Shown here: in pieces, positions 2,779 to 25,314 of the stretch
Layout of the letters: each line of letters opens with the position of its first letter
Position numbering within the stretch: the first letter of the stretch is position 1
Virus record (IMG/VR): IMGVR_UViG_3300035698_003924
Span: 1-64,000 of that record
Source of the DNA: a virus
Length of the DNA: 64,000 nt
Reading direction: 5' to 3' (one strand)
Translations under genes and position numbers: made by a program
The notes under the pieces: generated by a model
Seen by the model: only the letters and a program-made list of their open reading frames with translations
What the model was told of the DNA's origin: nothing
Databases searched by the model: none

Positions 2779-3146
2779 GCTTCTTGATGGAATACCCGAC
2801 TATTGGCTCACCGACTGAGACCGTGACACTACGGAACCCACAGTTCGAGGATCAGCAAAAGACCGAGGCCGCTGCGATCATTGGTCGTAGCGACTTCGGC
2901 CAAGCTCAAACTCGGCACGTAACGGGTCGCAATGTTTGGCAGGTGTGGGAATACACATTCCTTGTCTACGATGACCCCGAACCCTTGCGCGAGTTCCTAG
3001 CAGCTACGACGGGCCTAGAGATTAAGGTCACAGACCATGACGCCAATGTTCGTAACGGATTCATTATCATGGAACCGATACAGTTCGTAGAATTACGTAG
3101 TGGCGTGTTATGGGAAGTTACCTTCACGTTCATGGAGTCACAGTAA
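2775..3146 (+). CDS. Small tail-tip protein (distal-tail-like)
   Basis: 123 residues. It begins with an ATGA overlap with the tape measure and ends in a TAATG overlap with the adhesin gene, so it is translationally coupled at both sides. The pattern TVTLRNP, then a WEYTFLVYDDPEPLREFLAATTGLEIKVTDHD segment, then WEVTFTFME, is repeated at low identity at the N-terminus of the next protein (TVTIRNP ... FFELTAGETIKYTDYNGDIW). The two therefore share a tail-attachment fold. Position directly after the tape measure is where distal tail and baseplate proteins lie. The exact role is inferred. Confidence 0.7.
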   Translation: MSFLMEYPTIGSPTETVTLRNPQFEDQQKTEAAAIIGRSDFGQAQTRHVTGRNVWQVWEYTFLVYDDPEPLREFLAATTGLEIKVTDHDANVRNGFIIMEPIQFVELRSGVLWEVTFTFMESQ

Positions 3147-6100
3147 TGTCAGTAACTTTCTCATACCCATATACCAGCCCATCGACCACCGTAACCATCC
3201 GTAATCCTGACTTGGGTAACGCGGATATAGCCCACTTCCGCCCCAATATAATGAAGGCTACCGATGGGACGGTCTACTCGTATAAGCGCACACCTGTACT
3301 CCGCCAGTTCCTGCTCAATTTTCGGGGTATCTGTGACACTGAGATTGCTGCAATCCAAACATTCTTTGAGCTGACCGCTGGCGAGACTATCAAATACACG
3401 GACTATAATGGAGATATCTGGCAGGTTGTTTCATTGAATCAGCCGCTAGAGTATGAAGATACGCGAGACAACAACTACAAGTTCACGCTCCAGCTTGAGG
3501 GCATACCAGACTCCAGCACATCGACGACGACTACTGAGGCGCCCACGACCACTACCACAGTAGCGCCCACTACGACCACTACCACAGTAGCGCCGACAAC
3601 AACTACGACCACCGTCGCGCCGGTATGCAATGACTGTGAGCCAGCTATAGCGGTAGAGATGTGTGTAACCCTGGCCGGTCTAGCTGGCGACCTATTAGCG
3701 TACAACGGCCAGACTACTGTGACGTTCGACGCTGCCTGTACTTGGTATGATGATTCAGATGATCCGCATATCATCCTACAGTATGTCAGTGGGCGCTGGT
3801 ACATTTTCGTCAAATCCGTGAACAACTGTACTAAGACCTTTGTGGGTGACGTTACGCCCAACGTCTGTGCCCCTTGGGATGACACATTTACCGAGGCGGC
3901 TTGTGACGTGCTAGCTTGCACGGATCCGGATACGTGCACAGATAGTATCGGGGCCACGGCAGCGGTAACATCTGGTCCCTGTGTCACAACGACTACCACT
4001 ACAGTCGCGCCAACCTCGACGACCACAACTGAAGGCCCGACCACAACGACCACGACAGCCGCGCCCACAACGACCACAACGACCACTACCGGTGCACCGA
4101 CCTCGACGACTACGACAGTCGCACCGACCTCGACGACCACCACGGCAGCGCCGGACTGCAACAGTTGTAATCCTGCTCTACCGAATCAAATGTGTATCAC
4201 CCTCGTGGGTCTCGCAGGCGATCTAGCCGTTTGGAATGGCGCCAATACCGTGACATTCACCACTGGGTGCAGATGGCATCTAACTGATGGCACCGCAGAT
4301 TTGGAGTTATACTATGCCGGCGATCACTGGTGGCTTTATGCGAGTTCGGGGCCGAGCTGTATCAAGACCTGGGTGGGACCATCGGAACCCTCAGATAGCA
4401 AACCGTGTGCACCCTGGGATGCAACGTTCAGCGAAGATGACTGCATCGGCAGTCTTTGCGCAGATCCGCAGACCTGTGGTGATAGTGCCGGAGCTACTGC
4501 TGTGGTGGCTTCGGGTGCTTGTACTACAACGACCACGACAGCCGCGCCCACAACGACCACATCAACGACCACCACGGCAGCGCCGGACTGCAACAGTTGT
4601 AATCCTGCTCTACCGAATCAAATGTGCCTGACCATCGCAGGCTTAGAGGGTGACCTAGCGCTGTGGAATGGCGAACACACAGTAACCTGGGTATCGGGCT
4701 GCAACTGGCTGAAGGATTTGGGCGGCGGCGATGAACTGCTCCTAGAGTATATTACTGATTCTTTGTGGTACATCTCTGCCAATGTTGGCGATGCCGACTG
4801 TTCAATGCAGTGGGAAGATAGCGCTGGCCCGATCCATGATGCTCCCTGCGATCCGTGGAATGTTACATACGTTATCGCAGACTGCATATCTAACTCCTGC
4901 AGCGATCCGTCAACGTGCGGCGAGAGTGGGGCCGCAACAGTCTCAGTCGTTTCGGGTGCTTGTACTACAACGACCACGACAGCCGCGCCCACAACGACCA
5001 CAACGACCACTACCAGTGCACCAACGTCTACGACGACCACGACCACGACCACGACTCACGCCCCGACATGTAATGATTGTTGGCCCGACTTGCCGCCGAC
5101 ACTATGTGTGACGCTAAACGGCTTGGGTACGGGCTTCAGCTACTGGAATGGTGCACATGAGATCACACAGCTGTCTGCCGGCTCATGTACGTACTCGGCT
5201 TCCGATGGTGACAAATACCTGATATTGAGCTATGATACAGGCAGATGGTACACAAAAATCACCGAAGATTTCGGCGGCAGTTGTACCAAGCAGATGGAAC
5301 TCGTGGCCGGGGAGCATACCTGCGCCCCTTGGGATGGCGTTTGGAGAGCAGTAGACTGCGGTAACATTTGCTCTTACGGCGACGCGTGTTTGGACAGCGC
5401 AGACGCTACCTTATCAATAGCTAACACGGGTACCTGCACGACCTCCACAACGGCTGCACCCGTATCTACTACCACCACAACCGTTGGCCCCGGCTGCTTG
5501 GGTCAGCAAGTTTTCACTGAGTTCGTTGAGGCTGACCCCACAGACTTCTTGACTATGACACCCACGAAGATTCAAGGAATCGATATTAGCACCCGTGCAG
5601 ATGCTTGGGCGTATAAAGACTGCTGCGAGGGCTACTTCAATGAGTTGGATATTGATTTTGAGCTCAGGGTCAATGACGCTACCGGAAGCACAAGTTTTGG
5701 TACTTTCGCGGTGTCGAATGTGGTGGACACTGTTACGCACTGGATTTCTAGTAGCGACCAAGCCCTAGTTGTCTGGGTCTATGCTTTCAGCGGGTCGGTA
5801 GATATCTACTTCTCGAATACTGAACTTGGCACCTTTGACTCCATATCCGTCGGAGTGGGCACCAAGTTTTATCTCTCAGTAATCAGGGAGACAGGCGCTA
5901 CCACAGCTGAGTGTAGGATCTATACGGACTTCGCTAGGACGCAACTGGCCGTCACTTTGAGTGTGACTGTGACTGCCGGCAGGTCTTGGAAAAATCTCTT
6001 CGGGTTCGTCAGCTTCAATTCTGGCGCCGGCGGTTACTGTGATGCAGACATTGAGAACATGGTCGTGCACTCAGGTAGTTGTGCTGACGACCTCGAAGTA

Positions 6101-6529
6101 GATAGTGTGACGCTGACAGAGGGTACGTTGGCCACTGGCGATCTGGATAGTCTCACGACGGTAGATGCTGACTATTATCAGATCACAGAGGTCACGGGTA
6201 CACCCGGCTTTGATCTGCGATTCAATTTTGTCGATGTGTGTTCCGAGATTTTCTATATCAAGTTCGTGGGCCAGTACGACGGCAACCCCGCCCACATAGT
6301 AAAAGCCCAGTGGTGGAACTACGATACCTCAGCTTGGGTAGATGCAACAGCAGAGTCCACGGACTTCCCCAGTCAGGCGCCTGACTATGTGCGCACATTC
6401 GATATACCCAGTGCAGATTATGTTGAGGGCTGTGAGGCGATCTTCCGTATTAATCACACCTCTCCGGGCGACACAAATCACGAGTTCTACATCGACCAGT
6501 TGGTACTCTTAGCTGGAGTCGCCCCATAA
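3146..6529 (+). CDS. Modular Thr-rich (mucin-like) tail adhesin with four Cys-rich repeats
   Basis: Start at 3146 (TAATG coupling) rather than the longer frame from 3110. 1127 residues. Residues 1-121 resemble the preceding small tail protein and probably dock to the tail. Four Cys-rich modules follow at about residues 160-281, 336-460, 481-608 and 641-766, each of pattern CNxC...MCxTLxGLxGDL...WNG...CxW...C...CxPWD...C...CxDPxTCxxSxxAT...SGxC, with roughly ten cysteines each. They are separated by Thr/Ala/Pro linkers such as VAPTTTTTT. The C-terminus (from ~residue 785) has a lectin/LamG-like beta-rich domain and a second beta-sandwich. The cysteines suggest disulfides in an extracellular particle protein. 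The linkers resemble O-glycosylated mucin stalks, and the next operon segment encodes glycosyltransferases. Receptor binding is inferred from architecture and position. Confidence 0.75.
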   Translation: MSVTFSYPYTSPSTTVTIRNPDLGNADIAHFRPNIMKATDGTVYSYKRTPVLRQFLLNFRGICDTEIAAIQTFFELTAGETIKYTDYNGDIWQVVSLNQPLEYEDTRDNNYKFTLQLEGIPDSSTSTTTTEAPTTTTTVAPTTTTTTVAPTTTTTTVAPVCNDCEPAIAVEMCVTLAGLAGDLLAYNGQTTVTFDAACTWYDDSDDPHIILQYVSGRWYIFVKSVNNCTKTFVGDVTPNVCAPWDDTFTEAACDVLACTDPDTCTDSIGATAAVTSGPCVTTTTTTVAPTSTTTTEGPTTTTTTAAPTTTTTTTTGAPTSTTTTVAPTSTTTTAAPDCNSCNPALPNQMCITLVGLAGDLAVWNGANTVTFTTGCRWHLTDGTADLELYYAGDHWWLYASSGPSCIKTWVGPSEPSDSKPCAPWDATFSEDDCIGSLCADPQTCGDSAGATAVVASGACTTTTTTAAPTTTTSTTTTAAPDCNSCNPALPNQMCLTIAGLEGDLALWNGEHTVTWVSGCNWLKDLGGGDELLLEYITDSLWYISANVGDADCSMQWEDSAGPIHDAPCDPWNVTYVIADCISNSCSDPSTCGESGAATVSVVSGACTTTTTTAAPTTTTTTTTSAPTSTTTTTTTTTHAPTCNDCWPDLPPTLCVTLNGLGTGFSYWNGAHEITQLSAGSCTYSASDGDKYLILSYDTGRWYTKITEDFGGSCTKQMELVAGEHTCAPWDGVWRAVDCGNICSYGDACLDSADATLSIANTGTCTTSTTAAPVSTTTTTVGPGCLGQQVFTEFVEADPTDFLTMTPTKIQGIDISTRADAWAYKDCCEGYFNELDIDFELRVNDATGSTSFGTFAVSNVVDTVTHWISSSDQALVVWVYAFSGSVDIYFSNTELGTFDSISVGVGTKFYLSVIRETGATTAECRIYTDFARTQLAVTLSVTVTAGRSWKNLFGFVSFNSGAGGYCDADIENMVVHSGSCADDLEVDSVTLTEGTLATGDLDSLTTVDADYYQITEVTGTPGFDLRFNFVDVCSEIFYIKFVGQYDGNPAHIVKAQWWNYDTSAWVDATAESTDFPSQAPDYVRTFDIPSADYVEGCEAIFRINHTSPGDTNHEFYIDQLVLLAGVAP
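3508..5489 (+). repeat. In-gene repeat region: four Cys-rich modules with ACN-codon linkers
   Basis: Within the adhesin gene the linkers are low-complexity ACN codons at about 3508-3625, 3985-4155, 4522-4587, 4966-5067 and 5440-5489. Long identical stretches occur at DNA level between modules: the linker-to-module junction at 4130-4193 recurs at 4562-4625, and the junction at 4508-4565 recurs near 4954-5012. Modules have therefore been copied or exchanged recently. Confidence 0.85.
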
Positions 6530-9411
6530 TGGTAAGAACACTCTCGTCAAATCTGGCTACTAAGGTTGCTACGCTCCACGGCACAGAGCCATACTACGTT
6601 GTCAAGATCGAGTGGACCAGCGGTACTGTGTGCTATGCTAGCAAGGCCAAGGTGTTTGATGGCTTCAACTGTAAAGCATACCTCCAGAATACTGGTGACA
6701 TATCTGCGGTGGCTAACACCGACAACTATGGGGAGTCCTCCACATTTAGTATCGTATTGTTCGGTGAGACTGGCTCATTGAAAGATATACTTGATACCGA
6801 TGTGATGGAGCGTACCACCGCTACGTTGTATATGATGTTTGAGAATATCGACGATGCTGACGCGTTGATCTTAATCAAGGGTGTTGTCTCTGGCGATATA
6901 GCTTACTCCGAGATTGACCGTAAGCTGTCGTTTGAAATTGAATCAATCATCGACTCGAATGAAATCGGCTATGCCCCGGCAGAGGACGAGTTCGCCAACC
7001 TCAATCCAGACGGTGTGGATAAAGCATGGCCTCTGTGTTATGGTACAGTCTTGCGTGTACCGACTGCCCCAGTATATAAGAAAATCCACAGCATCACAAC
7101 TGTCGCGATACAGGGCTTCTTCAGTACCGGCACTATCGTAATGGCTAAGGTATTCGAGGAAGGTCCGACGCTGACATTTACCTGCGGCGGCCTGAAGTTC
7201 ACTGGGACCGTGGACGGTACTCTAATAACTTTCGTCACGATGAATGACAGTTATTACACAGATGTAGCCATCCTAGACCGCCCACTCCCCGCTGATGATC
7301 CTAGCTACTTTGACGCCTCGGTCTGTTGGGTCAGCTCTGACGTAGACCTTACGAACAAATACTGTACCGTGTTCGATCTGGCTATGGGCGGTTGGGCGGT
7401 CAACTGGTGTATCCGTCAAGAGGGCACGAAGTGCCACTTTGTGAAGCCCTGGGGTTCCGTGAATCAGCAGAAGGCACTTGATTCTACTAACGTCATGACT
7501 GACGTAGCCGGATTCCCCAAACCAAGTTGGCCGGCCGACATGACCGTACCGTCGTCACTGTATGATTACAACTGGCGGCTCGGTTCTTGGGAAGTAAACG
7601 GCGACTTCTCTGGCTATATCCTGACGCCAGACAGCTACGAGATACTCCCGCACAGTGTCTTTCTGCAGCTCACGGGTGTCGATGATGTGTACGTTTGTAA
7701 CCTGGGCGCGACCACAGCTATACTGGAAGTATTCAGTCACCGCCCCGTCAATGGCGAGAAAGCCCTAGCACCCATACCCTCTCGCTATTATGCCACGAAC
7801 TTGAGTGACACCATCAACGGTAAGAGTTGTACTACTCTCACTTTCTATGTACCTCTGGCACAGCGCGACGATGGTGCGTGGGAAGATGAGATTTATGTAT
7901 CATTGACCTCAGCTAAATCCTCGAGTACCCCGGCCATCATTGAAGATTTACTGACAACCTACACGAACATCACTGTAGATGCGGCCAGTTTCGCGGCGGT
8001 GGCAGCTGACCTAGCCACCTACCCCTCGCATGTAGCCTTCTTGGAGCAAGAAGATGCGTTGAGCTTATGTGAGGAAATCGCATACGAGGCTCGCTGTGCG
8101 CTGTACGTATACAATAATGTGGCGTACCTGAAGTATCTGTCTAAGGCACCGGCATCCACCGTAGCTATCAGCGACGCTGATACTATCGACGGGTCTGTGC
8201 GCATGATGTTCACGACCTACGAGGACGTCGAAACGCGGGTTGATGCAAACTGGAAGTTGGACTACTCCGGTGAAGAAGATACGGAGTGGGTCTATACTTA
8301 CAAGAATAACATAGAGGCGTATGGTCTCCGTGAAGAAGAGCGCACCTACAAGATTTACAACATCAAGGCCTTGGTCAAAGCCTCCGTGGACTTTTGGGGT
8401 CACAGGGATTCAAACATCTGGCGTGTTGTATCATTCAGTACGCCGCTACAGACTACGGCCCTGCAACTGTTTGACGACGTATCTCTGAGCCTAGCCATCT
8501 TGAGCAGTAATACAATCGATGGTATCGTGATCGACCAGAAGTTTGCAGTAGCCGGGGACACGGTCACATATAAGGTGCTACTCGCCTCCCGCGCGGGTGT
8601 TTCCGATGGTGGTGGCCAGCCCCTGGAAGAATCAGATTTTTGGTCTGTGGCAGCCGTATCAGTCACTAACCCCGGCCTCGGCCTGTCACAGACCGACTAC
8701 ATTGTAGACTTCGTAGAGAACCCCGGCTCTGGCAATACCCACGGTAGCAAGTACACCGAGGGTAACGGCTCTGTGACTGTGGCACCTACCGCCCCGGCTA
8801 CGCCGACTCCGACTACACCGCCCACTACATCGGCGCCCGGCTGTAGCTATAGTGACCCATTCACCCGCGCCAATGAGAATCCACTTTCGACGCCATACGC
8901 TCTTATCAACACCGATGGCACCCCTGATAACATGCAGCTCATTACTAATCGTGTGGTCAAGTCAATCAGCACCGGCGAACAGTTCGCTGTGTACTACCGT
9001 GTTGCGTGTGACGCGGACCATTATGCACAGGTAGACTATAATATAGTATACGGGGGATCGCCAACAGGGTGGGGTGCCGTTGCTGTTCGTTTTGCCGCTA
9101 CTCCTGATGCTTACCCTGCTTACTTGGCCAGGATCACTGGTAACGGGATTCTTACTATAGATAGACTCACGGACTACGGGCCGCCAGCAACCTACGATAC
9201 CCTGGGCACCATTTATGGCCAACCGTCAGCGGGCACACTGAAGCTGACGGTTATCGGCGATGAGCTGCGGGCATACATAGACGGCAACTTGAAGCTGACT
9301 ATAACCGATACAGCCATAGCTGGCGAACCTGCTACAGCTTTTGGTGCCGGCAATACCGCTGGTAGCAGTTCGGCTACCTTCCTAGATAATTTTGAGACAG
9401 GTGACTTATGA
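6529..9411 (+). CDS. Large tail-tip/baseplate protein with Pro/Thr linker and C-terminal LamG-like domain
   Basis: 960 residues; the TAATG overlap couples it to the adhesin. Residues 1-~160 resemble the N-terminal region of siphophage tail-tip proteins and the middle region is long and beta-rich. Residues ~750-775 form a Thr/Pro linker (APTAPATPTPTTPPTTSAP). The last ~185 residues (from SDPFTRAN to FLDNFETGDL) match the concanavalin/LamG-like pattern of a DxFxR start, a YxARI segment and an xAYIDGNLKLTITD strand. Such domains bind carbohydrate or mediate adhesion. With the preceding gene it probably forms the host-contacting tip. Function is inferred. Confidence 0.7.
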   Translation: MVRTLSSNLATKVATLHGTEPYYVVKIEWTSGTVCYASKAKVFDGFNCKAYLQNTGDISAVANTDNYGESSTFSIVLFGETGSLKDILDTDVMERTTATLYMMFENIDDADALILIKGVVSGDIAYSEIDRKLSFEIESIIDSNEIGYAPAEDEFANLNPDGVDKAWPLCYGTVLRVPTAPVYKKIHSITTVAIQGFFSTGTIVMAKVFEEGPTLTFTCGGLKFTGTVDGTLITFVTMNDSYYTDVAILDRPLPADDPSYFDASVCWVSSDVDLTNKYCTVFDLAMGGWAVNWCIRQEGTKCHFVKPWGSVNQQKALDSTNVMTDVAGFPKPSWPADMTVPSSLYDYNWRLGSWEVNGDFSGYILTPDSYEILPHSVFLQLTGVDDVYVCNLGATTAILEVFSHRPVNGEKALAPIPSRYYATNLSDTINGKSCTTLTFYVPLAQRDDGAWEDEIYVSLTSAKSSSTPAIIEDLLTTYTNITVDAASFAAVAADLATYPSHVAFLEQEDALSLCEEIAYEARCALYVYNNVAYLKYLSKAPASTVAISDADTIDGSVRMMFTTYEDVETRVDANWKLDYSGEEDTEWVYTYKNNIEAYGLREEERTYKIYNIKALVKASVDFWGHRDSNIWRVVSFSTPLQTTALQLFDDVSLSLAILSSNTIDGIVIDQKFAVAGDTVTYKVLLASRAGVSDGGGQPLEESDFWSVAAVSVTNPGLGLSQTDYIVDFVENPGSGNTHGSKYTEGNGSVTVAPTAPATPTPTTPPTTSAPGCSYSDPFTRANENPLSTPYALINTDGTPDNMQLITNRVVKSISTGEQFAVYYRVACDADHYAQVDYNIVYGGSPTGWGAVAVRFAATPDAYPAYLARITGNGILTIDRLTDYGPPATYDTLGTIYGQPSAGTLKLTVIGDELRAYIDGNLKLTITDTAIAGEPATAFGAGNTAGSSSATFLDNFETGDL

Positions 9412-9851
9412 GCGCATACTTAGAATACTGGGTGGCCGCCACCGATCTGCCGAAACTAGCAAAAGCCGAGATAGGCTATGTCAGTAATAACTTACAAAGA
9501 ATCGGCGGCACGGTGAACATACTCATACTGTTCAGCGATATGCACAGACTGCGTAAGGCCGGCGTCGCGCTAACAACTTTTGAAGATGGGTCACCCGAAG
9601 GTGTGTGTATGATTAACATCATACGGGCGGGCCTCAAGAATGGTAAGTGGCGGCGCCGTACCGTTCGGCGCATGGCACTGGATGCCATGAATCATATCAC
9701 TGTTGAAGCCATAGTTAGGATAGTGGTTAATCTGTATGAGCGCGGGCTGGACATTGAGATATGCTTGCTTATAGTCAAAGATGCCGGAATCGAAGCACCT
9801 TTTATGAGAGAGATTGATGCCCGACTCGCCAAGCGTGGAAGCACAACTTAG
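9408..9851 (+). CDS. Hypothetical protein at the junction of tail and glycosyltransferase genes
   Basis: 147 residues, ATGA overlap with the tail protein and 35-bp overlap with the next glycosyltransferase. I do not recognise the family. It is basic and partly hydrophobic, with a Lys/Arg-rich stretch (KNGKWRRRTVRRMALDA) near the middle. The tight coupling shows it belongs to the same transcript. Confidence 0.65.
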   Translation: MSAYLEYWVAATDLPKLAKAEIGYVSNNLQRIGGTVNILILFSDMHRLRKAGVALTTFEDGSPEGVCMINIIRAGLKNGKWRRRTVRRMALDAMNHITVEAIVRIVVNLYERGLDIEICLLIVKDAGIEAPFMREIDARLAKRGSTT

Positions 9852-11589
9852 GCAGAAACTTATGGAGTTGCGGTTTGGGGTTACCACAACTACGCCCAAG
9901 CCCATATTAGCGCCGGTGCCGCGCCCGCCCAATAAGACAAGTGGCTGTGGGCCGTGTCAGGCTAAGATGCTGGCTGCTACAAAAGCGGCTAGCGGTAGCC
10001 CGATGCGGCTGTCTGTGATTGCAGCGGCGGCTAATGAGGGCAACTGGGTTCGCAGCACCTTTGCCAACGTCGAGGCCGACATGCCAGAGGCAGAGCGTAT
10101 TGTCTGTGATGATGCTTCTACGGACGGGTGCTGTGACGCGCTAGGTGACGCCACTGTCCTACGCTCTAATGTTCGCCGGGGTGCTGGCATGTCCCGTAGC
10201 ATAGCAATGGCGGCAGCCACAGGTAACGTTCTTGCCAGTATCGACCCACATGAAGAATACTCCCCCGGCCTATTTCAGGGCATGGCACAGTTTGTTTTAG
10301 AGAATCAGTGCATCGCCTGTCCGTCAGTAGCCTCTATGGAAGATAGGGCTGCACAGGGATGTGGTGCACATCTGAAGTATGTTGATGAACATGGCTTCCC
10401 GGTTATCAAGTATAATTCAGTCCCGCAGGATAAGAGTCCACGGTTGACCGAAGCCGTAGTTGGTGCCGCGTACTTCATGCCGCGAACAATCTATAACAGG
10501 CTGCCGAGCTGGCCGTCTATCATAGACATATGGGGCTACGAAGAAGAAACGCTGGCTATCTGGGCGTACATGCAGGGGATCAAGACGTATGCCCTACCTG
10601 AACACACGGTGTACCATTACTACCGGGACGGGAAAGTTGTGCCGTGGGGAGGGCCAACAACTGAGGGCATCCTACTCAATGCTCAGGCTGCGCTATTCAT
10701 GCTGTTCGAGCGCGGGACCTATGACGAGCATTTCGCGAAGAATGAGTCACGGATCATTACACCCGCGTTGAAGAACAAATTGGCTTTACTCAAAGCCGGG
10801 ACAGCTTATGATACAGGCCAGTGGAAGATTGGAAAAATCCGCTCGGACGAACAGACTCTAACTGAGTTGCTTCAAATGACTGCCCCGGCCAACCCCAAAG
10901 TATCTGTCATTGTCCCCACATATAATAGAGACGAGCTACTGCAACACGGATTGAAATCATTACGCAGCCAGTCGCTCGACGCCGAGATTATCGTAGTCGA
11001 TGATGGTGGGTCGCACCCGAGCACCACGCGCAAACATTGTGAGACATACGGCGCGAGATACATCCGACTGGAGTCTCCAGACAGACGGGTACCTAGTGTC
11101 CCGATCAATGCCGGGGTTAGGGCTGCGACAGGCGATATCATAGTGCTGACTTGCCCTGAGATTTATCATCTACAGCCCGATACGTTATCCCTACTCGTAG
11201 AGCCGCTGTATATCAATGATACAATACACACAACATGCAAGGGTTGGGATGACTCCGGCGCTGTTCTAACGGCGGTACGGAACGGGGAGACTGTTTCCGC
11301 GCAGATATACAAAAACATGGGCGTGTTGCAAACAGACTTCCCGTTCTTTTTAGCCCTGCACAAGAAACATTTTGAGGCTATCGGCGGCTACGATGAAGGC
11401 TACTTGGGTTGGGGCTTCGAGGATTACGACTTCATCACTCGCATACAGGCACATGGCCTCCATAAGAAAGTTACAGGCGCTGAGATTATCCACTTATCCC
11501 ACGAGCGATTCAATGATGCAGAGTTGCTGAAGCTGAACACCGATAGATTCAATGCTATGAAGGGTACGATTGTGAGGAATCAAAAGTGA
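9817..11589 (+). CDS. Two-domain family 2-type glycosyltransferase
   Basis: I chose ATG 9817 (GAGAGAG upstream) over the TTG at 9814. 590 residues. An N-terminal Cys motif (CGPCQAKM, ~residue 45) precedes a first GT-A domain from ~residue 63 (RLSVIAAAANEG ... IVCDDASTDG ... GAGMSRSIAMAAATG ... IDPHEEY). A second starts at ~359 (PKVSVIVPTYNRDELL ... EIIVVDDGG ... NAGVRAATGDIIVL) and ends in GYDEGYLGWGFEDYDFITRI, the late acidic motif of polypeptide GalNAc/Gal transferase-like GT2 enzymes. These enzymes transfer sugars from nucleotide-sugars. It lies directly behind the Thr-rich adhesin, so a virion-protein acceptor is plausible but unproven. Confidence 0.85.
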   Translation: MPDSPSVEAQLRQKLMELRFGVTTTTPKPILAPVPRPPNKTSGCGPCQAKMLAATKAASGSPMRLSVIAAAANEGNWVRSTFANVEADMPEAERIVCDDASTDGCCDALGDATVLRSNVRRGAGMSRSIAMAAATGNVLASIDPHEEYSPGLFQGMAQFVLENQCIACPSVASMEDRAAQGCGAHLKYVDEHGFPVIKYNSVPQDKSPRLTEAVVGAAYFMPRTIYNRLPSWPSIIDIWGYEEETLAIWAYMQGIKTYALPEHTVYHYYRDGKVVPWGGPTTEGILLNAQAALFMLFERGTYDEHFAKNESRIITPALKNKLALLKAGTAYDTGQWKIGKIRSDEQTLTELLQMTAPANPKVSVIVPTYNRDELLQHGLKSLRSQSLDAEIIVVDDGGSHPSTTRKHCETYGARYIRLESPDRRVPSVPINAGVRAATGDIIVLTCPEIYHLQPDTLSLLVEPLYINDTIHTTCKGWDDSGAVLTAVRNGETVSAQIYKNMGVLQTDFPFFLALHKKHFEAIGGYDEGYLGWGFEDYDFITRIQAHGLHKKVTGAEIIHLSHERFNDAELLKLNTDRFNAMKGTIVRNQK

Positions 11590-12164
11590 TTAAGCAACTG
11601 TATATCTTAGAGGGAGATATTCATCTTGGACCGACTGAAGGTGAGGGCGCGTTTCGTTGTAGTCTTGGTGATATTGTGGGTACTTATGGCAATTCAATAT
11701 GGTGGCTGCCGCTGGAGTATCTCACAGGGGTAAAGATTCTAAATACGCACCCAAGCAAAACTGAACGGGGCGCGTGGCGGGATATCTACGCGCGGCAGAT
11801 TGCGCTTGCTGATGTCCTGCAAGGATTGAAACACTCTATAAAATACTGGCCCAATATCCAGGGCGTTACGGTGGTCCGCCATACCGGAACGTATACGAAC
11901 TATGAGTATATTCGTGGTAGGGCAGACGTCGAGACCCTAACCAATCTGGATACCTACTACCCGGCGTGGATCATGACGGAGTACATATCAGACCCCACTA
12001 AGGTGATGCATTCTCTGCCTTGGGAGACGATGTGTGATGCTTTCAGTGCCGACGGTATCGAGCTTCACCATGATTGTATATGGGGACGTCAATACAGCGC
12101 GGATGTTTGGGGTAATATAAAGCTGCTTGATATAACCGACACGGCTGGTAAGAAATACCTGTAA
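11586..12164 (+). CDS. Hypothetical protein in glycosyltransferase cassette
   Basis: 192 residues, GTG start overlapping the previous stop (GTGA). Rich in Trp, Tyr and His, with motifs such as SIWWLPLEYL and ELHHDCIWGRQYSADVWGN. The family is unknown to me. It is translationally coupled to the upstream glycosyltransferase, so it probably works in the same modification pathway. Confidence 0.65.
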   Translation: MIKQLYILEGDIHLGPTEGEGAFRCSLGDIVGTYGNSIWWLPLEYLTGVKILNTHPSKTERGAWRDIYARQIALADVLQGLKHSIKYWPNIQGVTVVRHTGTYTNYEYIRGRADVETLTNLDTYYPAWIMTEYISDPTKVMHSLPWETMCDAFSADGIELHHDCIWGRQYSADVWGNIKLLDITDTAGKKYL

Positions 12165-12181
12165 CTTCGAGGGAGCAAATT

Positions 12182-12796
12182 GTGGCTAAGAACGCTGGCG
12201 TACACTATCAAGGATTGGACCTGAAGGGCGTGAAGCACGAAGGCCGGGACCGTAGACCAGAGTATGATCTGATTTTCCCTGACGGTGTGGTGGGTCAGAG
12301 CATCTTGGACATTGGCTGCAACATCGGCTACTATGTCTTTGAGGCATGGGCCAACGGCGCTTCACGCTGTATGGGTGTTGATCGCTCTACGGAGTACCAT
12401 CTCAAGTCGCTGCAGCTACTTGCAAAACTAGGCAACCCCGACACGCTGGCTTTCACATTGGCGAACACGCGCGTATGGAATCCGGATCAGCTCTACGATA
12501 CAGTCCTGTGTCTGAATGTTCTACATCACTGTGTAACCAAAGATAGGGCTGTTGTTCTACTGAAACAGTTGGACAGCTGGTCAACGAAGCGTATCGTCTT
12601 AGTCCTCACACCCGTAGGCGAAACACCGCCAGCTATCGAGGGCGGAGACACCTGGGCTATCGAACGTTGCGCTAAGGATATTCCCCGCGTGAGACTGATG
12701 CCTGAGTTCATGCAGGAGTTGTGGCCCAACTATACCGTAACATCCTGCCCGTCAATCGTCAACGAGGGCCGGACGATTGTGAGTATCGTGAAATGA
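12182..12796 (+). CDS. Class I SAM-dependent methyltransferase
   Basis: 204 residues; GTG start at 12182 preceded by GAGGGAG. Motif I is clear (SILDIGCNIGYYVFEAWANGASRCMGVD, ~residues 40-67), and a post-motif LCLNVLHHC corresponds to motif IV. Proteins with this profile methylate small molecules, sugars or proteins using S-adenosylmethionine. In this cassette a sugar or glycan O-methyltransferase role is likely but inferred. Confidence 0.8.
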   Translation: MAKNAGVHYQGLDLKGVKHEGRDRRPEYDLIFPDGVVGQSILDIGCNIGYYVFEAWANGASRCMGVDRSTEYHLKSLQLLAKLGNPDTLAFTLANTRVWNPDQLYDTVLCLNVLHHCVTKDRAVVLLKQLDSWSTKRIVLVLTPVGETPPAIEGGDTWAIERCAKDIPRVRLMPEFMQELWPNYTVTSCPSIVNEGRTIVSIVK

Positions 12797-13035
12797 AACT
12801 CGGCCCGGATTCCACATTGATAGCTCCGCACAGAGGTAAGCCGCCTGTGTGCCCCGAAGGCTATATACGCGACGGTGATCCCTTTGTGTTCATACCTATA
12901 CTACCGGCTTGCAGCCACCGTATAACTAAGAAAGTCAAGTCAGCCTGTTGCCCCGGTCAGGGATTGAGGTGGTGTTCTTTGAAAGAATGTACCCGCTGTA
13001 ATACACTGTGTCTGGAGTGTGTGGACTATGCATAA
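12793..13035 (+). CDS. Small Cys-rich protein
   Basis: 80 residues; ATGA overlap with the methyltransferase fixes the start at 12793. It has about ten cysteines (VCPEGY ... ACSHR ... SACCPGQGLRWCSLKECTRCNTLCLECVD), suggesting bound zinc. Similar short Cys-rich proteins with a CPEGY-like opening are seen among phage tail-associated genes, but I do not know a function. It overlaps the next glycosyltransferase by 8 bp. Confidence 0.6.
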   Translation: MKLGPDSTLIAPHRGKPPVCPEGYIRDGDPFVFIPILPACSHRITKKVKSACCPGQGLRWCSLKECTRCNTLCLECVDYA

Positions 13036-13780
13036 ATGCACTATACTTATGACCACATACCAGCGTGATGCCCTGCTGGAGTTGGGCCTACAGAGCCTAG
13101 CCAATCAGGACTTAGCCAGCAAAGACGTAGAAATTCTCGTGTTGGACGATTGTGCGAATCCCGATACGAGTACCAGAGCTATTGCTACGCAGCATGGCGC
13201 ACAGTATCTAGCCACATCATCCGGCGATCCTAACTGGAGGATACCCGGATTCGCATTGAACATTGGTGTACAGCGCAGCGATTCAGAGTATATTATCATA
13301 TCTTGTGCCGAGATGTATCATGTCGATGAAGAAACAGTCTCGGATCTAATAGGTATCCTCGATCAGGATAAGGACGCCATTGCCATAACCGGCGGCAAGA
13401 ACGACGTGCGCGGTAGGTATCTGGCTGAACTCACTACGACAGGTAAGCATGATCTGTCAGCATACCAAGATTGTGCAGATCTGAAAACACATCTGCCGTT
13501 CTTCATGGGTATGCACCGCAATGTTTTCATGAGCGTACGCGGCTACGACGAGGACTTCACAGGTCAGGCTTGGGACGACAATGATTTAGTTGATCGGCTG
13601 CTGCTTTACGGCTGCGAGTACACCCAAGCAGAGTCCCGTGTCGTACACCTGTATCATGGCCGGCAGTCATTAGGCCGTGAGGAAGATCATAAGGAACGGT
13701 GGGCGCGTAACTTGCGCCTGTACACTGAACGTAAAGGTGTTATACTCCGCAACATCGGCAAACATTGGGGGACATTGTAA
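13028..13780 (+). CDS. Family 2-type glycosyltransferase
   Basis: 250 residues from ATG 13028; an upstream GTG at 13019 is possible but lies deeper in the previous gene. Single GT-A domain: CTILMTTYQRDALLELGLQSL at the start, EILVLDDCANPDTSTR, NIGVQRSDSEYIIISCAEMYH, and a C-terminal GYDEDFTGQAWDDNDLVDRLL. It resembles the second domain of the 9817-11589 enzyme, so the two are probably paralogues within the cassette. Confidence 0.82.
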   Translation: MHKCTILMTTYQRDALLELGLQSLANQDLASKDVEILVLDDCANPDTSTRAIATQHGAQYLATSSGDPNWRIPGFALNIGVQRSDSEYIIISCAEMYHVDEETVSDLIGILDQDKDAIAITGGKNDVRGRYLAELTTTGKHDLSAYQDCADLKTHLPFFMGMHRNVFMSVRGYDEDFTGQAWDDNDLVDRLLLYGCEYTQAESRVVHLYHGRQSLGREEDHKERWARNLRLYTERKGVILRNIGKHWGTL

Positions 13781-13781
13781 A

Positions 13782-14315
13782 ATGTTCATCTCTCTTCCAG
13801 ACTGGATACAATACGAGACTGAAGGCCACGACGTTGTTGTGGAGTTTGGCGCGGGTCTTTTCAAGCGTATCAACCTCGTGGACTGCCCCTACCGCATCGG
13901 TATCGAAATCTCTGAGAAGTATATTGCAGAAGCCGGAAAACTCGGGCGGCTAAAAGACTGTGCAGCCGTCTGCGGTGACATACGGGAATACTACAAACTG
14001 ATACCCCACTGTACGTATGACTGCGCTATGATTATTGACGTACTAGAACACCTGCCCGCCAAGGATGCTAAGCAGTTCATAGCCAGCTTGCAACGAAACT
14101 TCAATAAAATCTTGTTGATGATACCCGCTGGCAGGTATATTCAGCAGGGCGACCCCACTGGCTTCGGCGAGCATGAGTACCAGACGCATCGGAGCTACTG
14201 GAAAGTTCCCGATATTGTGAAGATGGGCTTCCAGGAAATTATACTCATGCCCGGTTACCATAAGATCGCACCCAAAACAGGTTGTATATTTGCCACTTGG
14301 AGGAATGATGGATAA
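13782..14315 (+). CDS. SAM-dependent methyltransferase
   Basis: 177 residues from ATG 13782, just after the previous stop. VVVEFGAGLFKRI is motif I, GIEIS holds the acidic residue that contacts the ribose, and CAMIIDVLEHLP is the motif IV region typical of class I methyltransferases. The C-terminus contains GEHEYQTHRSYW, as in small-molecule or sugar methyltransferases. Substrate unknown; its place between a glycosyltransferase and a radical SAM enzyme suggests glycan tailoring. Confidence 0.75.
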   Translation: MFISLPDWIQYETEGHDVVVEFGAGLFKRINLVDCPYRIGIEISEKYIAEAGKLGRLKDCAAVCGDIREYYKLIPHCTYDCAMIIDVLEHLPAKDAKQFIASLQRNFNKILLMIPAGRYIQQGDPTGFGEHEYQTHRSYWKVPDIVKMGFQEIILMPGYHKIAPKTGCIFATWRNDG

Positions 14316-15261
14316 CAAGCAAGCATTTGTATCTGCCGGGCAACTCCCTTGGAAGCTTATCAAGAATCATCCAGACATGGTGTCAGCTGATGGGGTAATC
14401 ACACCGGTACATTTGCAGTTCAGCCCGACGAATAAGTGCAATGGCAACTGCACATGGTGCTCATGCTGTAACGAGGACAGGTCGCTAGAGTTGCCGATAA
14501 GCGAGATTGCGGATATCGCTGAGTACTTCGGCAGCTTGGATACCCAGGCGGTGACTATCACGGGCGGCGGCGAACCCACTATGCACCCGGAGTTCGATGC
14601 TATCATACGGCTATTCGAGCAACAGTCTATCGCCGTGGGACTGGTGACCAATGGTATCATACTGTCTAAGACTACAGATGATCTTACGTACCTCGATGAA
14701 GCTATGACGTGGATGCGCATATCCGTGACAGATACCGAGGGCAATTACGACTATAACCGGATTGTCAGAATCTGCAATAAGCTGCCCAACGTAGACGTTG
14801 GTATCAGCTTTGTGGTTGGCCATGAGGTCAACATGTCCACGGCTCGTGGTGTCTGTAACATCGCTACCGCGATTGACAACATCACGCATATCCGTTTCGT
14901 CCAAGATATCATGGACCCAGACAATGTGCAGATGCGGCGAGTACAGCGGGAGTGCAGCGGCATCACTGATAAGGCAATCTTCCAGTACCGAGATACCTTC
15001 ACCGGTGGCTCAGAGTGTTGCGGCATAAGTCTACTGAAGCCCGTGCTTTGGGCTGACGGTTACATCTACCCATGCTGCGGGGTGCAGTATGCATCAGACG
15101 ATCTACACCACATGCCAGAATCCTACCGTATGTGCAAGTGGACACAGTTTGAAGGTGCGGCCTCCTTCAACGGTACCCGCTGCAAGAAGTGCTACTATAA
15201 GAGCTACAATGATTGTCTGGAATCATTGCAAGGGGAGTTGAAACATGAAGCCTTCGTGTAA
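14308..15261 (+). CDS. Radical SAM enzyme with SPASM/Twitch-like C-terminus
   Basis: 317 residues from ATG 14308, overlapping the previous gene by 8 bp. C44-x3-C48-x2-C51 (TNKCNGNCTWC) is the radical SAM [4Fe-4S] motif, followed by TITGGGEPTMHPEF, the glycine-rich SAM-binding motif. The C-terminal third has a second set of cysteines (SECCGIS ... YIYPCCGVQYA ... CKKCYYKSYNDC), as in SPASM or Twitch auxiliary-cluster domains. Such enzymes cross-link or epimerise peptides or dehydrogenate sugars. In this cassette it could modify the adhesin or its glycan (inference). Confidence 0.85.
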   Translation: MDNKQAFVSAGQLPWKLIKNHPDMVSADGVITPVHLQFSPTNKCNGNCTWCSCCNEDRSLELPISEIADIAEYFGSLDTQAVTITGGGEPTMHPEFDAIIRLFEQQSIAVGLVTNGIILSKTTDDLTYLDEAMTWMRISVTDTEGNYDYNRIVRICNKLPNVDVGISFVVGHEVNMSTARGVCNIATAIDNITHIRFVQDIMDPDNVQMRRVQRECSGITDKAIFQYRDTFTGGSECCGISLLKPVLWADGYIYPCCGVQYASDDLHHMPESYRMCKWTQFEGAASFNGTRCKKCYYKSYNDCLESLQGELKHEAFV

Positions 15262-17722
15262 GCCAATATTCTGGACATGTTGTGACACAGCGGTGCTAGA
15301 GTTCATCGACGCGAATAGGGTACTACAAGACCTGAGTCGCGAGTATGACTTCTACTTCATGTGCTCAGGTACCAGTCTCCCACGCGTACGGGAGCTGTAC
15401 CGAGGCCACCACATCAAGTGTATCAATGACTTCTGTGTGAAGGCTAACACGCTGTTCACGCTACTGCGACGCCGCAACGACTATGATGTGGTGATCCGCG
15501 TGGACATGGATGCTATACTTTTCAACGTGCCGGATTTGCTGAACCGGGCACAGGCGGCTGTAGACGCTAAGGTAATCATCGGCAACCAGTCACCCGACAA
15601 ACGCTACGACTATATCCGAGGCGGCTGCAACATTAGCTCCCGTGCTGTGATCGAGACGATAGGTCGTCTATACTCGGACAATCCGCTAGAGTTTGATCCG
15701 GTGTATAGCGACGCAGCGGTAGCGGCAGGTGCTGTCCTTGATAGGCAGCCGATCTTTGAGGAGAGCTTGGTCTATGGCGGTACCGCCCCGACGTGGCACC
15801 CGTTGAAGTACGGCGGGAACCCACCCACGATAGCTCAGTTCAAGACCAACATCGCTGGCTACGTCAAGCCCGAGCCAGTGGCTGCACCTGCACCCGCGCC
15901 CACCGGGAATAAGATACCGAAACACATGCACTTCTTTTGGGGCGACAGCCCTATGTCGTGGATGAGGTATATGACGTTGCAGTCCTTCTGTAAAACGAAT
16001 CCCGACTGGGAGACTACGCTACATACGTCCGCCGCAGCGATAACAAAGAAGCCCTGGCATGAACACAACACCCAGGATTTCTTCAATTACACCGGCGAGG
16101 ATTATCGTAGCCGCCTAAGCGACTTGCCCATCAACATCGAGACTGACTGGAAGCCGCCAGCAGGATTCAGTGAAACACCCATCAATGTCTGTGCCTCACA
16201 TCAGAGCAACTTCTTCAAGTGGACTACACTGGCCACTCAGGGCGGCTGGTACTCCGACATGGACATACTCTTTGTCAAGAGTCTGAATCCACTGGCCGAA
16301 CGCATGGAGGATAGGTCAGTAGACACTGGCATCTGTTTCGATGGCCGGAGTCTACTCATCGGCTTCATGTGTTCCACACCTGATAACAGATTCTTTGCTG
16401 ATATAGCGAAGGCCGCACACGAGAGTTACAATGTGAACAACTACCAGTGTGCGGGTGTCCACGCTGCGTATGCGGCGATATACGGCATGGAAGGCCGTAA
16501 AAAGATGAATGGCGCAGAGATACTCCAGGATATTGAAAGCAGGTACCCCTACCTGGAGCTGTATAGTATCCCGACGCAGTACGTGTACCCCTGGTACTAT
16601 AATAGTTTGGATAAGGTCTATCAGGAGAGCCACGACCTGCCCGAAGATACACTGGGTATCCACTGGTACGGTGGCGACCCACTATCGCAGAAGTACAATA
16701 GCGTTCTGACGGATCAGAACTATGGCATCTACAAGAGTACATTTTGCAGGTACGCGCGTGAGGTGATACCGATTGACGCACGGGTCGCCCCGGTCAAAGA
16801 TACCGAGATTAAGTTAATCAGGCAGCCGGTATTCGCGGCTGAAGTGGAACCTATCCCCAAACATATGCACCTATTTTGGGGTAGTAGCCCGCTGTCTTGG
16901 CTCCGGTATCTGACACTCGAGTCCTTTTGTAAAACGAATCCCGACTGGAAGGTCACGTTGCACACGTCCTCCAGTTGCAACGACGTGGATAAGCCCTGGG
17001 GTGATGCTAATTTTCAGGACTTCTTCGCGTACACCGGTCCAGACTATATGCCACTGGCATCGAAGCTGCCCATCACGGTGGACAGCAACTGGGGTCCACC
17101 TGCGGGCTACGAGCCATTGCCCGATACGATGGGGCCATCGCATAAGAGTAACTTCTTCAAGTGGATGACACTCGCGGAGCAGGGCGGCTGGTATGCTGAC
17201 TTTGACATCCTGTTTCTACGCAGTTTGAATCAGCTGCATGATAAGGTAACAGCATCTAAGGCCACAACCGGCATGACCTTTGATGGTACGAATCTGCTTA
17301 TCGGTTTCATGTTCTCCGTGCCAAATAATCCATTCTTCCGTGAGGTAGCCAAACACGCGTATGGTTGTTACAACCCGGCGAAGTACCAGTGTGTCGGTGG
17401 GCGCTCGATATACTGGATGCTGTACGGTACAGGCTTCGGCGGTGTAATCGGTCACCGTTCGATATGGGATGATCTGACTGTGCTGTATCCGGATTGTAAC
17501 TTTTACAACATACCCATGCACATCGTGTACCCCTGGCCGCATAACCGGATGCGTTGTGTCTTTGAGCGTCGCTACAACATGGGTCAGCTCAACGAGGAGA
17601 CCGTGGGTGTCCACTGGTTTGGCGGCTGTGAACAGGCACAACAGTACAACAATGAGATGTTAGATACCACTATCGGCGACTACGATAACACCTTCACGAT
17701 CCTGAGAGGCGCGCAGCCATGA
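15245..17722 (+). CDS. Three-domain glycosyltransferase (DXD sugar-binding type)
   Basis: 825 residues. Domain 1 (1-205) has VIRVDMDAILF at ~83-93, a DxD metal/sugar-nucleotide motif. After an Ala/Pro linker (~208-220), domains 2 (~222-525) and 3 (~535-823) are clear paralogues. Each starts IPKHMHxFWG and contains FCKTNPDW, SNFFKWxTLAxQGGWYxDxDILF (DxD at ~336 and ~650) and ends with VxWxGG. These two belong to the capsular/mannosyl 'DXD sugar-binding' glycosyltransferase group (Gly_transf_sug-like). Tandem duplication inside one polypeptide suggests processive or two-step sugar addition. Confidence 0.85.
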   Translation: MKPSCKPIFWTCCDTAVLEFIDANRVLQDLSREYDFYFMCSGTSLPRVRELYRGHHIKCINDFCVKANTLFTLLRRRNDYDVVIRVDMDAILFNVPDLLNRAQAAVDAKVIIGNQSPDKRYDYIRGGCNISSRAVIETIGRLYSDNPLEFDPVYSDAAVAAGAVLDRQPIFEESLVYGGTAPTWHPLKYGGNPPTIAQFKTNIAGYVKPEPVAAPAPAPTGNKIPKHMHFFWGDSPMSWMRYMTLQSFCKTNPDWETTLHTSAAAITKKPWHEHNTQDFFNYTGEDYRSRLSDLPINIETDWKPPAGFSETPINVCASHQSNFFKWTTLATQGGWYSDMDILFVKSLNPLAERMEDRSVDTGICFDGRSLLIGFMCSTPDNRFFADIAKAAHESYNVNNYQCAGVHAAYAAIYGMEGRKKMNGAEILQDIESRYPYLELYSIPTQYVYPWYYNSLDKVYQESHDLPEDTLGIHWYGGDPLSQKYNSVLTDQNYGIYKSTFCRYAREVIPIDARVAPVKDTEIKLIRQPVFAAEVEPIPKHMHLFWGSSPLSWLRYLTLESFCKTNPDWKVTLHTSSSCNDVDKPWGDANFQDFFAYTGPDYMPLASKLPITVDSNWGPPAGYEPLPDTMGPSHKSNFFKWMTLAEQGGWYADFDILFLRSLNQLHDKVTASKATTGMTFDGTNLLIGFMFSVPNNPFFREVAKHAYGCYNPAKYQCVGGRSIYWMLYGTGFGGVIGHRSIWDDLTVLYPDCNFYNIPMHIVYPWPHNRMRCVFERRYNMGQLNEETVGVHWFGGCEQAQQYNNEMLDTTIGDYDNTFTILRGAQP

Positions 17723-19056
17723 ACAACATACGCGTCGTAGCTTTCTACACAATCGACACCCCGTACGAACAAGAGGTGGAGGTCTTACGCGCATCGTTAG
17801 TTGAAAATGGTGTCCGGCATCATATAGCGGGCTACCCGTCACGCGGGAGTTGGGTGGCAAACTGTGGGGTCAAACCTGAGTTTCTGCTGAGTGTACTGCG
17901 GCTGTTCCGCAACGATGATTTATTGTATCTCGATGCGGATGCCGTGGTGCAAGGGTCACTGGATTATTTTCGTAGACTCAGCACGGATGTCGGCGTACAC
18001 TACAAGGACGGCAAGGAGCTACTCAGTGGCACGATCTTCTTGAAGAATAATATCCGTGTAGAGGCGTTGCTAGAGTGCTGGCTAGCCGAACAGCGCAAAG
18101 CCCCGACAGAATGGGACCAGCGTGTTTTAGCCAAGTTGCTGGCCACATATTATACCAGCGGGCTAATGATTGAAGATATACCGCCGGAATACTGCAAGAT
18201 TTTCGATAAAGATATGGGCATCGGGGACACCGAGCCTGTCATCGTACACAATCAAGCTAGCAGACGGTTCAAGGAGGCCGTGAATATGTCAAAAGAGAAG
18301 CCCGTACACACATTCAAAGACGTTCCTGTGGAGTTGTTTGGTCTGAGGATTCGACGTGGCGGGGATGGCACGATCTGGATATCGCGGAAGAACAGGCAAG
18401 TCATCGACTACCTGGACCAGCGATACACGCGGGTGCCGGGAACCTTGAAATGGTACCCTAAGGCTGAGGCCGCTCAACCGTTTGAGTCCGAGAGGGTTCA
18501 CTTTGACGGGGTGGGCTGTTACTTGGTGGGTAAAGGCCCAAGCCTGGATGAGCTGACTCGGGCAGATTTTACGAATCCTACGTGGCCCATCATCGCGATC
18601 AACGATGCGATCCACAAGGTAGAGAGTCTGGAGTTGTCGAATCCCATGTACTGTGCCCAACAGGATACGAGCCTACAGGATACATGTAAGCCCGCGACGG
18701 GTAAGCTATTCGTGGCTCACCAGTCGAGACACTTCTACGCAGACTTCCGAAACAAGTTTGTGTTCCATCCAGTAGACCTGGAACTCAGCTCCAGTTCGCT
18801 GACAGTCTTGTGTGCTATCAAGATTGCGAAAATCTTAGGTACAAAGCAGTTCACGATGCTGTGTTTCGATGCTTGCGTAAATCGAGAGACAGCCTATGCA
18901 GAGTGCATAGGCTATTCTCCCGACCATCATGGTGGACCGCCGTCGCGGTTCCTTGTACACCGTGAGAAAATTGATAAGCTACTCGACAAGACGTCTGCAA
19001 TCTGGCTTACACCCAGACTCCCTGTGAGCAGAGTAGACGATATACCTCCGCAGTAG
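17719..19056 (+). CDS. Glycosyltransferase fused to DUF115/Maf-like domain
   Basis: 445 residues, ATGA overlap with the previous gene. N-terminal half: GT-A-like with LLYLDADAVVQGSL (DxD, ~70-78), SGTIFLKN and WDQRVLAKLL, as in GT8-like or related nucleotide-sugar transferases. C-terminal half, from ~residue 265: GCYLVGKGPSLDEL ... PIIAINDAIHKVE, the glycine-rich pattern of DUF115 (motility-associated factor/sialyltransferase-like) proteins, which glycosylate flagellins in some bacteria. A protein acceptor would fit that kinship. The last 50 bp overlap the convergent exonuclease gene. Confidence 0.75.
   Translation: MNNIRVVAFYTIDTPYEQEVEVLRASLVENGVRHHIAGYPSRGSWVANCGVKPEFLLSVLRLFRNDDLLYLDADAVVQGSLDYFRRLSTDVGVHYKDGKELLSGTIFLKNNIRVEALLECWLAEQRKAPTEWDQRVLAKLLATYYTSGLMIEDIPPEYCKIFDKDMGIGDTEPVIVHNQASRRFKEAVNMSKEKPVHTFKDVPVELFGLRIRRGGDGTIWISRKNRQVIDYLDQRYTRVPGTLKWYPKAEAAQPFESERVHFDGVGCYLVGKGPSLDELTRADFTNPTWPIIAINDAIHKVESLELSNPMYCAQQDTSLQDTCKPATGKLFVAHQSRHFYADFRNKFVFHPVDLELSSSSLTVLCAIKIAKILGTKQFTMLCFDACVNRETAYAECIGYSPDHHGGPPSRFLVHREKIDKLLDKTSAIWLTPRLPVSRVDDIPPQ
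18891..18913. terminator. Perfect 10-bp inverted repeat inside the glycosyltransferase gene
   Basis: AGCCTATGCA, a 3-nt loop (GAG), then TGCATAGGCT. It lies in the coding sequence, about 95 bp beyond the stop of the leftward gene that ends at 19007. It may end or protect the 3' end of the leftward transcript, since the two operons overlap and leave no intergenic space. There is no T-tract, so termination is uncertain. Confidence 0.45.
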
Positions 19057-19636
19057 TGATACAGTCCTGAAGGGCATCGTGTGCTCGTAATGTCTGCACA
19101 CCAAGCTTCTTCGCCAGCGCCTGTAGACCTACTTTGGAGTAGGGAACTTTGGCTCCGTGCATGGCTGCCCGGTCATTCAAAAACTGGGCGGTCAGCATGG
19201 AGTCTTTGTAATGGTAGTGGAAGAACTCATCGTATACGTCTGCCGTGAGCCACCGCTGGATGAAGCCACGGTCGAACGCATAGTTCTGACCAAGCGGGAT
19301 GATTTTGTGTGGGTTACCCCAACGGGTAACGGGTAGCCCTAGCTTCTTGACCCACTCCCGTAGCATGTCGATAGCCTTGAGGGGATCGTGGCCGGTATCC
19401 ATAGCTCTAGCCATCTGTTCCCGATTCATCCTGATAGCTTCGGGGTCAATGGTATGCTCATTCTCGATCTTCATCTCGATGTAGAATGGTGCTACGTCCT
19501 TACGGGGTTTGAAGTTTGAATCCAGCGCCAAGATACTGAGTTGCCAAATCTCGTGGCGCGTGGAGTCCAGACCCGTAGTCTCAGTGTCGATAGCGCACAC
19601 CTGATTCCCGTTCCAATGCTGCATACACTTAGCCAT
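19007..19636 (-). CDS. DnaQ-like 3'-5' exonuclease (DEDDh)
   Basis: 209 residues. AIDTETTG (Exo I, ~15-22), GQNYAFDRGFIQR (Exo II) and AHDALQDCITTAEVYRLL (Exo III, DEDDh type with His before the final Asp) are all present. It probably proofreads or degrades DNA in replication or repair. Last gene of the leftward replication operon; start overlaps the previous stop (TAATG). The 3' end overlaps the opposite-strand glycosyltransferase gene by 50 bp. Confidence 0.88.
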   Translation of the reverse strand: MAKCMQHWNGNQVCAIDTETTGLDSTRHEIWQLSILALDSNFKPRKDVAPFYIEMKIENEHTIDPEAIRMNREQMARAMDTGHDPLKAIDMLREWVKKLGLPVTRWGNPHKIIPLGQNYAFDRGFIQRWLTADVYDEFFHYHYKDSMLTAQFLNDRAAMHGAKVPYSKVGLQALAKKLGVQTLRAHDALQDCITTAEVYRLLCSQGVWV

Positions 19637-25179: not shown

Positions 25180-25268
25180 AGTAACATTTATATAGCCTTG
25201 CGCCAACGCCTATACATGGAGGGCAGGAAAGTAGCTTATTGCAAAAAACCAGAATCAAGTTACGATAT

Positions 25269-25304: not shown

Positions 25305-25314
25305 GAGAAGCATG

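Follow-up and report, generated by a model that had tools for sequence, protein, structure and literature searches.

What does a phage do with a tail operon that ends in a set of glycosyltransferases? This question is raised by the virus record IMGVR_UViG_3300035698_003924, of which we analyzed bases 1–64,000 (the window; the whole IMG/VR record has 67,997 bases). Between the gene of the tail hub and a convergent exonuclease gene the window encodes predicted glycosyltransferases (GTs), S-adenosylmethionine (SAM) methyltransferases and a radical SAM enzyme. An earlier note had read these genes as the glycosylation cassette of a threonine-rich tail adhesin encoded upstream. We find that related contigs carry such genes at the same place, mostly next to tail genes devoid of threonine linkers. 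In our judgement the chance is about even that they form a modular, phage-encoded glycan-building cassette in a family-wide fixed slot, acting in the host cytoplasm and most likely on a component of the virion.

The cassette and its slot

The cassette of the window consists of nine genes, followed by the gene that bounds the slot downstream:

9817–11589, + strand: two-domain GT2 glycosyltransferase (PF00535, 1.5e-27, in two stretches; start placed by homology)
11586–12164, + strand: 192-amino-acid protein (no Pfam or NCBIfam match over cut-off)
12182–12796, + strand: SAM methyltransferase MT1 (PF08003, 1.7e-9; PF13649, 2.1e-7)
12793–13035, + strand: CYS, a small Cys-rich protein and constant cassette member (16-member alignment)
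13019–13780, + strand: GT2 glycosyltransferase (PF00535, 1.1e-8)
13782–14315, + strand: SAM methyltransferase MT2 (PF13649, 2.8e-4, under the Pfam cut-off)
14308–15261, + strand: radical SAM/SPASM-like enzyme (PF04055, 2.2e-13; cluster motifs)
15245–17722, + strand: three-domain glycosyltransferase with an N-terminal DxD domain and two Gly_transf_sug domains (PF04488, 1.5e-14, in two stretches)
17719–19056, + strand: GT-A domain (PF03407, 2.5e-5) fused to a GPSL domain (about 18343–19053)
19007–19636, − strand: RNase_T exonuclease, convergent, downstream slot boundary (PF00929, 2.8e-13)

The genes are packed tightly with short overlaps, and a simple hydropathy scan predicted no membrane segment in any of the cassette proteins. 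The four GT genes hold eight predicted GT-type domains (two in 9817–11589, one in 13019–13780, three in 15245–17722 and two in 17719–19056), in agreement with the at least seven catalytic-type domains counted before, and the two methyltransferases and the radical SAM/SPASM-like enzyme are likewise present as described. CYS, the 192-amino-acid protein and an MptE/GT42-like domain are members that the earlier list did not contain. The DxD motifs of the three-domain GT read VDMD, SDMD and ADFD. In the radical SAM enzyme both the CX3CX2C and the SPASM CX(9-15)GX4C motif are present, although the protein of the window gave no match to the SPASM domain of Pfam. A motif in the 192-amino-acid protein may loosely recall a kinase-fold active site. 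At its N-terminus the two-domain GT2 (9817 onward) has a short CGPC motif, which is replaced by CLPC in a relative.

Used alone as a query, the radical SAM sequence of the window gave no matches. An alignment of three radical SAM sequences led to 36 loci, and the scans with radical SAM, last-GT and nine-member hub alignments yielded 21 hub-bearing contigs. The closest relative, contig G006 (L003/L125/L254), shows about 60–75% identity over most genes (40% and 47% for two unknown proteins) and possesses the threonine-rich adhesin as well as the complete gene set. All cassette genes are under purifying selection, since in the comparison with G006 nonsynonymous sites differ at 0.16–0.39 and synonymous sites, near or at saturation, at 0.68–0.91. 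The 192-amino-acid protein is duplicated in tandem in this relative (L125 10259–11400), the second copy being interrupted by a stop. A further contig, G001 (36% hub identity), has CYS, a GT2, the radical SAM enzyme (52%) and the last GT protein (about 40%).

The order hub, cassette, convergent exonuclease is constant across distinct contigs. We selected slots for readability, several contigs being fragments, and among the 15 contigs with a readable slot (window included) the exonuclease gene closes the slot in most. CYS and the GPSL domain, accompanied by one or more additional enzymes or enzyme domains, are found in 13 of the 15; the two exceptions are L269, where the slot is empty with neither CYS nor GPSL, and L273, which has CYS alone. 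The variable parts comprise additional GT2s, Gly_transf_sug proteins and methyltransferases, sulfotransferases (Sulfotransfer_2 in L145, and slightly under the Pfam cut-off in L183) and, in L185, a B12-binding radical SAM protein. The three-domain GT is split into separate genes in L145, L146, L257 and L265, and the PF03407/GPSL protein is likewise encoded by separate genes in some relatives. Mantel tests were run with and without the window; without it, the correlation to the hub distances was 0.34 for CYS, 0.25 for GPSL, 0.08 for the radical SAM enzyme and 0.47 for GT2, compared with 0.80 for hub versus Dit. The modest values fit an exchange of cassette genes. Thresholds and groupings (threonine-linker calls, readable slots, profile cut-offs and the contigs of the Mantel tests) were set during the analysis and several families were rebuilt iteratively, and p-values are therefore descriptive.

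We therefore suggest the following model for this cassette, which in most members of one uncultured tailed-phage family would lie in the slot flanked by the tail hub gene on one side and the convergent exonuclease gene on the other. Soluble GTs would build a short glycan on a protein acceptor in the host cytoplasm, needing neither a lipid carrier nor a flippase, and the glycan would next be tailored by the methyltransferases and the radical SAM enzyme, joined in some relatives by sulfotransferases. CYS and the MptE/DUF115/GT42-like domain would be the constant parts, the remainder being swapped between phages. The most likely acceptor would be a component of the virion, probably one in its tail, and the phage would benefit by changed adsorption or by shielding. 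In the lineage of the window the threonine linkers and Cys-rich modules of a second Dit-like protein would have come later, possibly as an extra acceptor. Soluble assembly on a protein is suggested because no cassette protein has a predicted membrane segment, and a virion acceptor because of the tail-operon location and by analogy with the chlorovirus PBCV-1 and phages of the Che8 type.

Three points weigh against this model. The soluble enzyme set could also act on host envelope precursors or on a small molecule; the modest Mantel correlations speak against a close tie of the cassette to a single tail protein; and the GT-A fold matches described below are generic, with glycogenin and others matching too.

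The first alternative is that the cassette alters the host envelope glycan during infection, resulting in superinfection exclusion or a receptor change. The matched phage GT families belong to the PHROG categories moron and O-antigen conversion, and a relative of the radical SAM enzyme (40%) lies within an apparent bacterial glycan cluster on contig L201, a setting that also suits the glycan-building model. However, nothing in the window cassette is predicted to be a membrane protein, a flippase or an enzyme of lipid carriers, and the cassette is placed in the tail operon; we therefore regard an envelope target as unlikely.

CYS and the GPSL domain

The two constant parts of the cassette deserve a closer look. 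CYS is a previously undescribed protein of about 80 amino acids, in which P18, P21, G23, Y24, C40, C61, C73 and C76 are invariant in the 16-member alignment. Its AlphaFold2 model is confident (predicted local distance difference test, pLDDT, 88.8) and has no fold match in the PDB at E ≤ 0.001. Curated families gave weak matches only, none over the cut-off, and a tblastn search of 50,697 annotated phage records with a CYS relative as query gave no match. Three contigs encode CYS as part of a fusion, its partner being methyltransferase-like in L259 and L261 and a GT2-like stretch in L184. In close relatives it is encoded upstream of the radical SAM gene; in several CYS-bearing cassettes a radical SAM gene was not detected.

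CYS might itself be the acceptor, either as a phage-specific glycan carrier on which the swappable transferases build and tailor a glycan for virion display, or as a peptide that the radical SAM enzyme and the GTs would mature in the manner of ribosomally synthesized and post-translationally modified peptides (RiPPs). It is the constant non-enzyme gene, has an invariant P..P.GY motif, persists alone in L273 and in most contigs is encoded ahead of the core enzymes. The fusions in L184, L259 and L261, however, also fit an accessory Zn-type domain, there is no conserved Ser or Thr, and the radical SAM enzyme is undetected in minimal forms of the cassette. Furthermore the best 25 of 41 NCBIfam matches of the radical SAM enzyme all lie far below the cut-off, and none identifies it as a known RiPP maturase. 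We consider an acceptor role of CYS improbable.

The GPSL domain is predicted to be an MptE/DUF115/GT42-like transferase domain. In the 15-member alignment G63, K64, G65, S67, L68, D69, N87, D108, D176, Y185 and A186 are invariant, and PF01973, the sole recurrent Pfam match, is found in 13 of the 15 members with weak scores (best E 2.3e-7). Its nearest PDB sequences, which we take to be GT42-type sialyltransferases, are matched at E values of 0.0075–0.074, the best being a CstII-type sialyltransferase with a weak 0.0075. Matches in the viral library include phage proteins annotated as MptE-like; the full PF03407/GPSL protein gave chance matches only against PDB sequences. The model of the full-length protein has a pLDDT of 79.9 and a predicted template modelling (TM) score of 0.48, and its N-terminal half matches GT-A enzymes including the capsid glycosyltransferase of PBCV-1 (TM 0.68–0.71 on the target at 13–14% sequence identity). 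The alignments behind the two structure models had 14 and 16 rows. The GPSL domain frequently occurs as a fusion with a GT-A domain or with a methyltransferase domain.

The 3′ ends of the last cassette gene and of the convergent exonuclease gene (17719–19636) overlap; the shared stretch measures 50 bases in the window and 122–200 bases in L183, L184, L185, L257 and L259. The low-complexity C-terminal tails of the GPSL proteins are antisense to the exonuclease because of this overlap.

Threonine linkers and the cassette

The tail genes upstream of the cassette are:

22–2778, + strand: probable tape-measure-like protein, upstream landmark (assigned from open reading frame, position and composition)
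2775–3146, + strand: first Dit-like tail protein, paralogue of the adhesin N-terminus (family profile DIT matches both)
3146–6529, + strand: the "adhesin", with a Dit-like domain, five Thr linkers, four Cys-rich modules and a C-terminal domain
6529–9411, + strand: tail hub (HUB), 960 amino acids, its C-terminus with a short Thr/Pro linker and a further domain
9408–9851, + strand: U147, a fast-evolving 147-amino-acid protein (40% identity to the close relative)

The adhesin has the linkers and the four Cys-rich modules that had been ascribed to it. It contains 203 Thr and 49 Cys in 1127 amino acids; 95 of the Thr lie in 17 runs of at least three, and the longest run of nine was never equalled in 1000 shuffles. 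The runs are seemingly kept at the protein level and not as a DNA microsatellite, because all four Thr codons are used (29 ACG, 29 ACC, 21 ACA and 16 ACT). The protein thus has the Thr/Pro-rich acceptor tract expected of a mucin-type substrate. A Thr-rich linker beside glycosyltransferases is, however, not in itself evidence of an enzyme–substrate relation.

The cassette was said to follow directly behind the adhesin. Close packing and short overlaps are indeed observed, but the 960-amino-acid hub and the 147-amino-acid protein intervene. Calling a linker where at least 11 of 20 residues are Thr (10 for one table), we found Thr linkers among the 15 slot contigs in the window and G006 only. Two contigs have linkers and cassette, none has linkers only, 11 have the cassette only and two have neither (Fisher p = 1). 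The tail module of 11 of the 13 contigs with the cassette core therefore contains no Thr linker, and the pattern TTTxxPTTT was absent throughout 21 of the 22 related contigs searched. In the relatives the Dit-like counterpart of the adhesin stops without the extension; G001 has such an unextended Dit-like protein and a proline tract in the hub in place of the Thr linker. Linkers and cassette thus show no detectable association, and possession of the cassette clearly does not depend on Thr linkers. The expected co-occurrence of Thr-linker adhesins and these enzymes in related phages was not borne out; instead we observe what the earlier note had named as a refutation, namely homologous cassettes that are regularly found with no Thr-rich virion protein. 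Of the idea that the cassette belongs to the adhesin what stands is a glycan-building and tailoring cassette in a tail operon, not its dedication. Since most cassette-bearing relatives lack a Thr-rich adhesin, the enzymes have probably not evolved specifically to coat it; another part of the virion may well be what they coat.

A cassette dedicated to O-glycosylating the linkers of the neighbouring adhesin would still agree with the gene adjacency, with linkers of the O-glycosylation type, and with the confinement of the two-domain GT2, the 192-amino-acid protein, MT1 and MT2 to the two Thr-bearing contigs. These contigs are close relatives, however, and the confinement therefore counts as one event. 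A parallel is provided by the distant prophage-like locus L287 (G515 contig 1), in a genome from the phylum of L201, where a tail hub with a Thr linker is followed by two GT2 genes, two genes which look GT-like (no Pfam match) and one methyltransferase gene. On the other side, the linker pattern matched at least 120 viral contigs. In a sample made up of 100 poly-Thr viral contigs, searched for the single GT family PF00535, 24 had a match at E ≤ 0.001 (23 over the curated cut-off) and 76 had none. All that these counts show is that many recovered contigs with Thr linkers have no GT2 gene. A literature search returned nothing relevant on Thr-rich or polythreonine phage linkers or on phage cassettes combining radical SAM enzymes and GTs. 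Taken together we consider dedication to the adhesin improbable; the Thr linkers could be an additional acceptor in the lineage of the window.

A pathway to a small molecule or modified nucleotide, with no protein as its target, is a very improbable reading of the cassette: MptE-type enzymes act on pterin, PF01973 recurs in GPSL, and radical SAM and methyltransferase enzymes suit such chemistry, but the numerous GT domains per cassette and the sulfotransferases suit a glycan better.

The phage and known systems

PHROG matches in the window to terminase, portal, scaffold and major head protein indicate a tailed phage. In the phage records mentioned above no relative was detected for the adhesin (tblastn) or the tail hub, and the major head protein has distant relatives only. 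Distant hub matches were found in 7 of 392 genomes from the phylum of L201 (contig titled Planctomycetota) and in 1 of 398 from the phylum of a contig titled Alphaproteobacteria; these counts are a weak pointer to a planctomycetal host. CYS was not found in the 392 genomes. The window also encodes two ParB-like proteins (25198–26340 and 30375–31217), and the product of 21122–22048 matches PF18909, a dATP/dGTP diphosphohydrolase N-terminal domain, pointing to a possibly altered nucleotide metabolism.

Virion glycosylation has been documented in few phages. If the modular virion-directed cassette is the right explanation, a family-wide slot with exchanged enzymes would allow the surface-glycan chemistry of viruses to be compared between natural variants, the empty slot and the slot with CYS alone being natural contrasts. 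Among the systems described, phage O-antigen conversion (Gtr) also relies on phage-borne GT2 genes; the window cassette differs in having no membrane flippase or membrane-bound GTs and in its tail-operon location. O-antigen conversion was judged unlikely since the window cassette has no membrane proteins. With the Maf/DUF115/MptE-like and GT42 transferases the GPSL domain shares the motif G-K-G-[PS]-S-L-D, the PF01973 matches and the weak CstII-type match, whereas its weak scores and the frequent fusion to a GT-A or methyltransferase domain set it apart.

Closer in outline is the glycosylation of virions in mycobacteriophage Che8 and relatives (Freeman et al. 2023, as cited in PMC11256854), again a tailed phage with its own glycosyltransferases; a virion acceptor is what we propose for our phage too. 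The GTs differ, the three-domain GT having no tblastn match in the phage records and the two-domain GT2 one weak match in an uncultured phage, and hence no clear homology to sequenced phages, mycobacteriophages included (this test covered these two GTs). Also different are the proposed tailoring by radical SAM enzyme and methyltransferases, to which relatives add sulfotransferase, and the two constant parts, CYS and GPSL.

In the chlorovirus PBCV-1 the capsid is glycosylated by virus-coded multidomain GTs (A064R, A111/114R), accompanied by a methyltransferase domain (PMC7826918). PBCV-1 differs as a eukaryotic virus with an N-linked capsid glycan, and the low identity of the fold match separates the enzymes. 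The likeness lies in virus-coded multidomain GTs, sugar methylation and an assembly that would be independent of host organelles, and the predicted GT-A fold of 17719–19056 matches the PBCV-1 GT structures.

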